A DNA stretch of 64,000 nt from Fibrobacter sp. UWT2 (lineage in GTDB: Bacteria; Fibrobacterota; Fibrobacteria; Fibrobacterales; Fibrobacteraceae). Shown here in pieces: positions 16,967 through 19,603 of this stretch. A program made the translations under genes and the position numbers. Position 1 is the stretch's first letter; the number at the start of each line of letters is the position of its first letter. The notes below the pieces were generated by a model that searched no databases, was not told the DNA's origin, and saw only the letters and a list, made by a program, of their open reading frames with translations. The stretch is from assembly GCF_900142545.1 (NCBI RefSeq), contig NZ_FRBF01000006.1:62001-126000 (forward strand), in the 5' to 3' direction.

Positions 16967-18064
16967 CTATGCGTCTTCGCTAACGCTGACTTCGTCGCTG
17001 TCGTCAGCTTCGATGGCGTCGCCTTCGTTCAGCTTGAACAGTTCCACGTCCTTCATACTTTCGCGGATCTTCTGCTCGATTTCGTTGCAGAGGTCTGCGT
17101 TGTCCTTCAGGAACAGGCGGGTGTTTTCGCGACCCTGGCCGATGCGTTCGTTGTTGTAGCTGAACCAGGAACCGCTCTTCTGGATGATATCGAGTTCGGT
17201 AGCGAGGTCGAGGATAGAGGCTTCACGAGAAATACCGCAACCGTAAAGGATGTCGAATTCGCACTGGGTAAACGGAGCGGCCACCTTGTTCTTGACCACC
17301 TTGACGCGGGTGCGGTTACCGATCACTTCTTCGCCGTCCTTGATGGCGGCGATGCGACGGATGTCGATACGCTGGGTGGCGTAGAACTTCAGGGCGTTAC
17401 CGCCGGTGGTGGTTTCGGGGTTACCGAACATCACGCCGATCTTCATACGCAGCTGGTTGATGAACAGCATGCAAGTGTTGGACTTCGAAAGAATGCCGGT
17501 GAGCTTACGCAGGGCCTGGCTCATAAGGCGGGCCTGCAGACCGACGTGGTTGTCGCCCATTTCGCCGTTGATTTCGGCCTGGGGCACAAGTGCTGCCACA
17601 GAGTCGATCACGATGATGTCGATAGCGCCGGAACGAACGAGGGTCTCGGCAATGTCGAGGGCCTGTTCACCGGTGTCCGGCTGGGAAACAAGGAGGGATT
17701 CGATATCCACGCCGAGCTTACGGGCGTAGACGGCGTCAAAAGCGTGTTCTGCATCGATGAATGCGGCGACACCGCCAAGCTTCTGGGCTTCGGCAATGGC
17801 GTGCAGGGTCAAAGTCGTCTTACCCGAAGATTCCGGTCCGTAGATTTCGATGATACGACCGCGGGGGAAACCTCCGACGCCAAGGGCCATGTCGAGCTGG
17901 ATACAACCCGTAGGAATAACGGGAATGTCTTCGACGGGCTGCTGGCCTAGGGCCATGATGGAACCTTTACCATAATTCTTTTCAATTTGGGCGATGGCGG
18001 CTTCTACTGCCTTGGCCTTGTCTGCGGAAAGGTTGCTTGTCGGGGTTGTTGTTTTCTTAGCCAT
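16967..18064 (-). CDS. recA: Recombinase RecA
   Basis: 365 residues from the ATG at 18064 (MAKKTTT), which has GGAG eight bases upstream. RecA forms ATP-dependent filaments on single-stranded DNA, drives strand exchange and triggers SOS self-cleavage of LexA. Motifs: KNYGKGSIM, Walker [10 protein letters not shown], Walker B region [10 protein letters not shown], and loop L2 region [13 protein letters not shown]. The C-terminal tail is acidic, as usual. It follows cinA and appears to have its own promoter inside the end of cinA. Confidence 0.98.
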
Positions 18065-18093
18065 GTTGGACTCCATTTTGTTTTTCGTTTCTA

Positions 18094-18122
18094 AATATAA
18101 CATTTAGTGTTCACTTGTGCAA
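18094..18122 (-). promoter_or_regulatory. recA promoter with SOS-like palindrome over the -35 box
   Basis: On the minus strand, TTGCAC (18117-18122) and TATATT (18094-18099) are spaced by 17 bases, about 30 bases upstream of the recA start. The imperfect palindrome TGCAC-AAGT-GAACA (18108-18121) overlaps the -35 box. It matches 8 of 10 fixed positions of the TGCNC-N4-GTGCA LexA box that I recall for Fibrobacter succinogenes. Confidence 0.6.
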
Positions 18123-18655
18123 GTGCTTTTTTGGTTATTCAACAAAAAAAGTAGCTTGCCCAATACACTATACACGCTTTTTTCGCGTACCTCGGTACGG
18201 TTTCCTTCGAAAATTTTACAAAAAACCTCATTTTGCAAACTATTGGCGACAGCCATCCATACGGTTCCTACAGGTTTGCCGGGTTCTGCTCCGGTAGGGC
18301 CTGCGATTCCGGAAGTGGCGATTGCCCATTCGCAACCGAACTTTTTGCGTGCGTCTTCGGCCATGGCTTTTACTGTTTCGGCCGAGACGGCGCCCTTTTC
18401 TTCGAGCACTTGGTGCGGGACTCCGAGCAGGGATTCCTTGATTTCGTTCTGGTAGGCGACAATGCCGCCGGCAAGTATTGCCGAAGATCCTGCCTCGTTT
18501 ACGATGCTGCTTGCCACAAGTCCGCCCGTGAGCGATTCGGCTGTAGCCATCATTTCGCCACGTGCAATGAGCGTATCCTTGATGGCCTTGACCAACTGGG
18601 AAATCTTGTTTTCGAAGTCTTCGTGTTGAAGATCAAAATCTTTTGTATCGCTCAT
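18104..18655 (-). CDS. CinA C-terminal domain protein (PncC-type nicotinamide-nucleotide amidase)
   Basis: 183 residues from the ATG at 18655, chosen because GGAG stands seven bases upstream; the ATG at 18661 is too close to that site. Visible motifs are ATAESLTGGLVAS near residue 40, GGIVAYQNEIKESLLGV, and ATSGIAGPTG, all hallmarks of the CinA C-terminal amidase domain. The family converts NMN to nicotinate mononucleotide. The N-terminal CinA domain is absent. The cinA-recA order is common in bacteria. Confidence 0.88.
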   Translation of the reverse strand: MSDTKDFDLQHEDFENKISQLVKAIKDTLIARGEMMATAESLTGGLVASSIVNEAGSSAILAGGIVAYQNEIKESLLGVPHQVLEEKGAVSAETVKAMAEDARKKFGCEWAIATSGIAGPTGAEPGKPVGTVWMAVANSLQNEVFCKIFEGNRTEVREKSVYSVLGKLLFLLNNQKSTCTSEH

Positions 18656-18685
18656 TTTCATACTCCGTAATTTAGAATTATTTTG

Positions 18686-18700
18686 TGTCATAAAATGACA
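18686..18700. promoter_or_regulatory. Perfect 15-bp palindrome upstream of cinA
   Basis: TGTCAT and ATGACA are perfect inverted repeats around a 3-base spacer, 31 bases upstream of the cinA start. It could be an operator; the regulator is unknown. Confidence 0.4.
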
Positions 18701-18812: not shown

Positions 18813-18841
18813 TGAACAAACGAATATAAAGGAGAACAATG

Positions 18842-19603
18842 ATGAATTACTTAAAATATGCACTCTTGATCGGTGCTGTGTTTTTTGCCGCTTGCGGAGA
18901 TGACTCTTCTACGTCTGCATCCGATGTTCCTAAAGATTCTGCCAAAACATCCTATGTCACGACGAGCTACCTTAATCCCGATTATTCGTACGGGGAGATG
19001 ACGGATGCTCGCGACGGTCAGGTGTACAAGACGACTACAATCGGTTCGCAGACTTGGCTTGCGCAAAATTTGAACTATGAAACGACGAATTCTGTCTGCT
19101 TCAATAATGCTGCCGATAGTTGCGCCAAGTATGGAAGGCTTTATTCATGGAACGATGCTAAGGAGGCTTGCCCGTCCGGTTGGCACTTGCCCGATACAAC
19201 GGAGTGGAACGTATTGTTGGATGAAGTGGGTGGAAAGGATTCGGCTACCGTAAATCTTATTTCGAAGAATGGCTGGCCCAGAAGCGAAAGTGCCGCTGCG
19301 TCTATGGATTCTATCGTATCCCAATTGGATTCCGCTTTGATGGACAGAATTCCCAAGGGTTGGGGCGGTTCGGACCCTTATGGGTTTTCTGCTCTTCCGG
19401 CAGGTCAAAAGCATAAAGGTGGCGATTTTATGGGGGTCGGTGGCATGAGTGATTTTTGGCTAGCTACAGAATACTTGGTAAATCTGTTTGGCGATAGTGT
19501 CGATGAAGCCTTGTATGCGAATCTGCTCATTTTGGGATATTATGTCTACGTGGTTCAAGAAGAAAAGACCAGCTTCAAGTCTGTTCGTTGCATCAAGGAT
19601 TAG
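18842..19603 (+). CDS. FISUMP-domain lipoprotein
   Basis: 253 residues. The lipobox FFAAC puts the acylated Cys near residue 18, followed by a Ser/Thr-rich spacer (DDSSTSAS). The rest is a FISUMP domain, the Fibrobacter succinogenes major paralogous domain: TMKDGQVY-like start (DARDGQVYKTTTIGSQTW), LAQNLNY, CFNN, YGRLYSWNDA, CPSGWHLPD, FSALPAG, FWLATE and the final SVRCIKD. The function of this surface domain is unknown. Two adjacent ATG codons exist (18839, 18842); the second has better spacing (7 bases) to AAAGGAG. Confidence 0.93.
   Translation: MNYLKYALLIGAVFFAACGDDSSTSASDVPKDSAKTSYVTTSYLNPDYSYGEMTDARDGQVYKTTTIGSQTWLAQNLNYETTNSVCFNNAADSCAKYGRLYSWNDAKEACPSGWHLPDTTEWNVLLDEVGGKDSATVNLISKNGWPRSESAAASMDSIVSQLDSALMDRIPKGWGGSDPYGFSALPAGQKHKGGDFMGVGGMSDFWLATEYLVNLFGDSVDEALYANLLILGYYVYVVQEEKTSFKSVRCIKD

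Follow-up and report, generated by a model that had tools for sequence, protein, structure and literature searches.

LexA control of recA is textbook biology. In E. coli and B. subtilis, recA is a core member of the SOS response and is repressed by LexA at an operator that overlaps the promoter. The LexA box of Fibrobacter succinogenes is reportedly TGCNC-N4-GTGCA, and the LexA motif of the Verrucomicrobia is said to be TGTTC-N4-GAACA. The recA gene described here, from a genome of the genus Fibrobacter, has a promoter that is very probably under LexA control, as judged from its sequence and that of its relatives. It is like the E. coli and B. subtilis recA promoters in the overlap of operator and promoter and in belonging to a core SOS gene. 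It differs from them in the operator sequence and in that the Fibrobacter operator lies partly inside the upstream gene. The candidate operator has the same half-sites and the same N4 spacing as the F. succinogenes box, but one of its halves is degenerate, and it overlaps the -35 hexamer and the coding end of cinA rather than the interior of the promoter spacer. The degenerate half, TGTTC or GAACA according to strand, is identical to the Verrucomicrobia half-site, whereas the other half is the GTGCA of Fibrobacter.

The recA gene (16967..18064, minus strand; TIGR02012, 585.6 bits) starts at 18064 with MAKKTTT. Upstream of it on the same strand is cinA (18104..18691), which encodes a CinA / nicotinamide-nucleotide amidase domain and ends in a TAA stop codon at 18106-18104. 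The initial annotation had placed a recA promoter within the 3' end of cinA, consisting of TTGCAC and TATATT separated by 17 bases on the minus strand. The hexamers and the 17-base spacer are borne out by the sequence, with the -35-like TTGCAC at 18117..18122 and the -10 TATATT at 18094..18099. The placement needs to be amended in one respect: the -35-like hexamer and the box are inside the 3' end of cinA, but the -10 hexamer is just beyond the cinA stop. TTGCAC is a weak -35, matching TTGACA at 3 of 6 positions. A consensus promoter scan instead calls TGCACA, shifted by one base; the spacer is then 16 bases, 9 of 12 positions match, and the -10 is preceded by a TG, as is present in this genome. 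From the position of the hexamers, the recA transcription start would be expected near 18087. On the far side of cinA, and divergent from it, is a lipoprotein-like ORF (18839-19603) with a promoter-like TTGCCA-16-TATATT.

The palindrome TGCAC-AAGT-GAACA that had been noted over the -35 box is confirmed at 18121-18108. This probable LexA operator (18108..18121) reads TGTTC-ACTT-GTGCA on the plus strand and TGCAC-AAGT-GAACA on the minus strand. The two mismatches to TGCNC-N4-GTGCA attributed to it hold for the minus-strand reading only; on the plus strand there is one. The candidate operator takes in the larger part of the -35-like hexamer and the first bases of the spacer in what is itself a predicted promoter, and such overlap with core promoter elements is a property of a Fibrobacter-type LexA operator. 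A perfect inverted repeat of this genome, CACTTG-CA-CAAGTG, was considered as a functional element and rejected, since relatives carry AAAC or AAAA where this genome has AAGT.

One lexA gene was found in the genome (C2:90711-90902; TIGR00498, 221 bits). Its product contains AAG, GDSM and a later Lys, which we take to be the residues for self-cleavage and which are consistent with that activity. The lexA promoter has the form TTGACA-17-TATATT, and its spacer contains TGCCCAATTGTGCA. The box, TGCCC-AATT-GTGCA, is located between the -35 TTGACA and the -10 TATATT and is an exact copy of TGCNC-N4-GTGCA, in agreement with the consensus given for Fibrobacter LexA in the initial annotation. The motif at recA is also present at the genome's lexA, a second property of a Fibrobacter-type operator. 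Across the genus, the box is found at the same place in the lexA promoter in 30/30 loci, these being the 30 listed of 38 genomes with a match. Most are TGCCC-N4-GTGCA; among the other forms that the right half takes are GAGCA, GTACA, ATGCA and GAACA.

In the window, which is the whole stretch of 64,000 nucleotides that was analysed, there are 120 sites with up to two mismatches to TGCNC-N4-GTGCA, where 184 are expected. Likeness to the bare consensus, alone, therefore means nothing. The recA site was instead scored with a symmetric matrix that ignores the spacer and was made only from the boxes in the lexA promoters of 30 Fibrobacter loci, which comprise 8 distinct half-site pairs. By this matrix it scores 13.1 bits and ranks first of the 63,987 positions in the window; the next position scores 11.4, and the genome's own lexA box scores 15.5. 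The recA site is still ranked first when L054, the sole lexA training locus with GAACA, is dropped. Ten windows generated from a first-order Markov model contained 0 to 3 sites with an equal or better score (mean 1.0 per 64 kb). With a background of roughly one site of this quality in 64 kb, a chance match within approximately 40 promoter bases is estimated at about 6 in 10,000, a figure in which conservation is not counted. Its position on the predicted recA promoter and its conservation raise the candidate box above chance.

Conservation was assessed in 30 genus recA upstream regions, listed from 32 full-length genus matches. TTGCAC is invariant and TATATT is present in 30/30 of the aligned regions. 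AAAAGCACTTGCAC is likewise invariant in all 30. The N4 spacer varies in part, and the right half takes one of four forms, GAACA, GTACA, GTTCA or GAGCA. In each of the 30 loci the box is the best-scoring position in the 400 bases around the recA promoter. Of a further set of 55 named loci, scoring covered 45, leaving out nine that belong to other groups and one whose sequence was too short. The 45 are from Fibrobacter succinogenes and Fibrobacter sp. MAGs, with one Fibrobacterales and one Fibrobacteraceae bacterium, and they overlap in species with the 30-locus genus set. The box is the best position in the scanned stretch in 45/45 of these Fibrobacter-type loci. Where the right half is GTTCA, the scores are low, at 9.6-9.7 (4/30 of the genus set and 10/45 of the named set). 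Phylogenetic conservation at the same gene, as seen here, is a third property of a Fibrobacter-type operator.

The same conservation could be read as that of a constitutive recA promoter, in which the -35 and its neighbours are kept for RNA polymerase and the resemblance to a LexA box has arisen by chance. The -35, the -10 and the adjacent AAAAGCAC are conserved as much as the box is, consensus matches with two or fewer mismatches are common, and the motif is not enriched genome-wide. The right half of the box does not fit this explanation. Its G--CA falls in the promoter spacer, a region in which polymerase does not require particular bases, yet the G, C and A are kept in 75/75 loci, while positions 8-9 and 11-12 of the box vary. 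In addition, the variants of the right half recur at other genes, with GAACA, GTACA and GAGCA also found at lexA and GTTCA at uvrA, and the first rank of the site comes from a matrix of lexA boxes. A constitutive promoter with a coincidental box is therefore considered unlikely. The interpretation as a LexA box is supported by the lexA-only matrix, by its retention in every genus locus examined and by its presence in 12/13 loci at the order and class level.

The candidate operator overlaps the last cinA codons in the 30 genus loci examined. This overlap would be expected if the site were kept because it encodes the C-terminus of CinA. The Pfam CinA match, however, covers residues 32-180 of 195, leaving the tail outside, and it is in this tail that synonymous choice is frozen. 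In 74 codon columns of cinA, one residue is shared by at least 28/30 loci, and 10 of these columns use a single codon. Single-codon columns make up 5/6 of those within the last eight cinA codons and 5/68 of those elsewhere (Fisher p = 9e-5, with the eight-codon limit chosen after the data were seen). The box also persists where cinA stops earlier. At the order and class level, cinA ends before the box in 11/12 of the loci with a cinA match; for two of these loci, L202 and L208, the ends used are ORF ends (-34 and -18), since the tblastn-based ends overran a stop. In L198 the cinA stop falls inside the box, and at L153 the cinA coding sequence runs across this DNA in a reading frame other than the usual one. 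The frozen codons, the persistence of the box past the end of cinA and the change of frame in L153 indicate that the constraint acts on the DNA. Conservation for the sake of the CinA C-terminus is thus very improbable. In Fibrobacter, the putative operator DNA encodes the final residues of CinA, the end of cinA being written over it.

Directly upstream of the recA -35 is AAAAGCAC (18123..18130, minus strand), a candidate UP element or extra half-site. It is invariant in 30/30 genus loci and in 45/45 scored named loci. The form AAAAAGCAC is not invariant, as L034 has four A. Since AAAAGCAC is outside the 14-base box, and spacer positions 6-7 of the box are nearly invariant too, binding of LexA to the predicted box does not explain all of the conservation. 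Upstream of the -35, GCAC does not vary within the genus, and this leaves room for a different repressor or activator, which would recognise a similar palindrome, either alone or with LexA, through the direct repeat GCAC-T-TGCAC. Related repeats, TGCCC-T-TGCAC or TGCCC-T-TGCTC, are found in 6/13 order- and class-level loci. The repeat is nevertheless degraded in L197 and L198, two loci at the order level, and the genome contains no second exact copy of AAAAGCACTTGCAC. A different regulator acting here has a low probability.

At the lexA promoter of the genus loci (L045-L074), an additional GTGCA half-site, paired with a degenerate partner, lies just upstream of the -35 and 31 bases upstream of the box. 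The GTGCA right half is present in 30/30, and the element scores at least 9 in 10/30. It is possibly a second LexA site. A broader proposal can be made only tentatively, and we think it somewhat less probable than its converse: that the Fibrobacter cinA frame overprints both the recA operator and the core promoter, so that the CinA tail would be dictated by LexA and polymerase recognition, and that AAAAGCAC and the isolated GTGCA upstream of the lexA box represent a class-specific LexA arrangement of multiple half-sites.

Outside the genus, TGCnC-N4-GAGCA or TGCnC-N4-GTGCA with a score of at least 14 is present in 12/13 order- and class-level recA upstream regions. Each of these 12 boxes is preceded by T, giving TTGCnC. 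The thirteenth, in G042, has the weaker TGCTTTCTTGAGCA. At the phylum level, none of seven recA upstream regions (G052-G058) has a convincing Fibrobacter-type box, the best score being 8.9. Among the 14 class-level lexA promoters listed, a clear N4 box is mostly absent, with scores of at least 13 in 3/14 and of 6.9-9.6 in the others. As a result, outside the genus the Fibrobacter lexA matrix is matched more closely at recA than at lexA. In eight of the class-level lexA promoters (L169-L176), TGCAC and GTGCA are found 20 bases apart around the promoter -35 in 8/8, with no clear N4 box. One genome from another family, G052, has TGAACACCTGTTCA at recA and TGAACGCTTGTTCA at lexA. This suggests a joint change of the regulator and its operators, as seen in a single genome in which a second LexA-like gene, L184, is also present. 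A whole-genome search for the G052 box in further genomes returned G052 alone.

Within the genome, box-like sequences are not in excess by either a loose or a tight pattern. The loose pattern, TGNNCNNNNGNNCA, is found at 594 places per strand, compared to 585 for the control. The tight pattern, which excludes the recA site itself through its spacer, is found at 13 places, compared to 21 for the reversed control. These 13 include lexA, rarA and a zinc-ribbon gene. At rarA (L224), TGTACATTTGTACA is on a TACATT -10 that follows TTGACA and a 17-base spacer, and at the gene for the zinc-ribbon protein (L219; PF12674), TGTACATTTGTGCA is in the same arrangement, on a TACATT -10 after TTGACA and 17 bases. 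The exact consensus also has 13 matches in the genome, and by inspection only that of lexA is clearly in a promoter. Of the other matches, one looks like a terminator hairpin (L011) and one adjoins a hairpin (L008).

The initial annotation had proposed a scan of lexA and other SOS gene promoters for the same box. The box is consistent at lexA within the genus, as described above, but patchy at other expected SOS genes. At rarA, a site scoring at least 8.6 is within 80 bases of the start in 7/18 genus loci, and two more have a site of 9.6 farther upstream. At uvrA, with starts set by the longest open frame, a score of at least 8 is found in 4/12 loci, and this genome has the weak TACACAAATGTTCA, at 6.0. 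The gene for a Y-family polymerase has a box in 2/10 loci and has none in this genome. UvrA (L250, G000:C9:85385-90664) is encoded as two UvrA-like copies, arranged in tandem within a single 1,778-residue open frame. UvrA frames of 1,760-1,818 residues are found in 10 other Fibrobacter genomes searched.

In the mechanism proposed, a LexA dimer on the box would block RNA polymerase at the recA -35. Upon DNA damage, RecA on single-stranded DNA would trigger the self-cleavage of LexA, and recA would then be transcribed from about 18087 with no need for transcription of cinA. The predicted promoter comes after nearly all of cinA, which means that recA could respond without it. When the region upstream of cinA was scanned, no such box was found, with a best score of 3.9, and this fits damage control of recA that is independent of cinA. 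Read-through from cinA into recA may also contribute.

A term search of the main text of PMC3079729 gives no match for LexA, SOS or recA. No earlier account of the recA site was found in the literature searched, which included passages of PMC3091678 and PMC8565304. The system is a classic DNA-damage switch in a little-studied group and is not a new kind of system; it is ordinary SOS biology. Its unusual points are the overprinted end of cinA and the invariant AAAAGCAC. With the recA site very probably a LexA operator, recA would join lexA, and perhaps uvrA and rarA, in the LexA regulon of Fibrobacter and probably of its class. The site shows how much one half-site can diverge with the box still retained, and it would be a clear naturally occurring example of a regulatory site kept constant within the end of a coding sequence.
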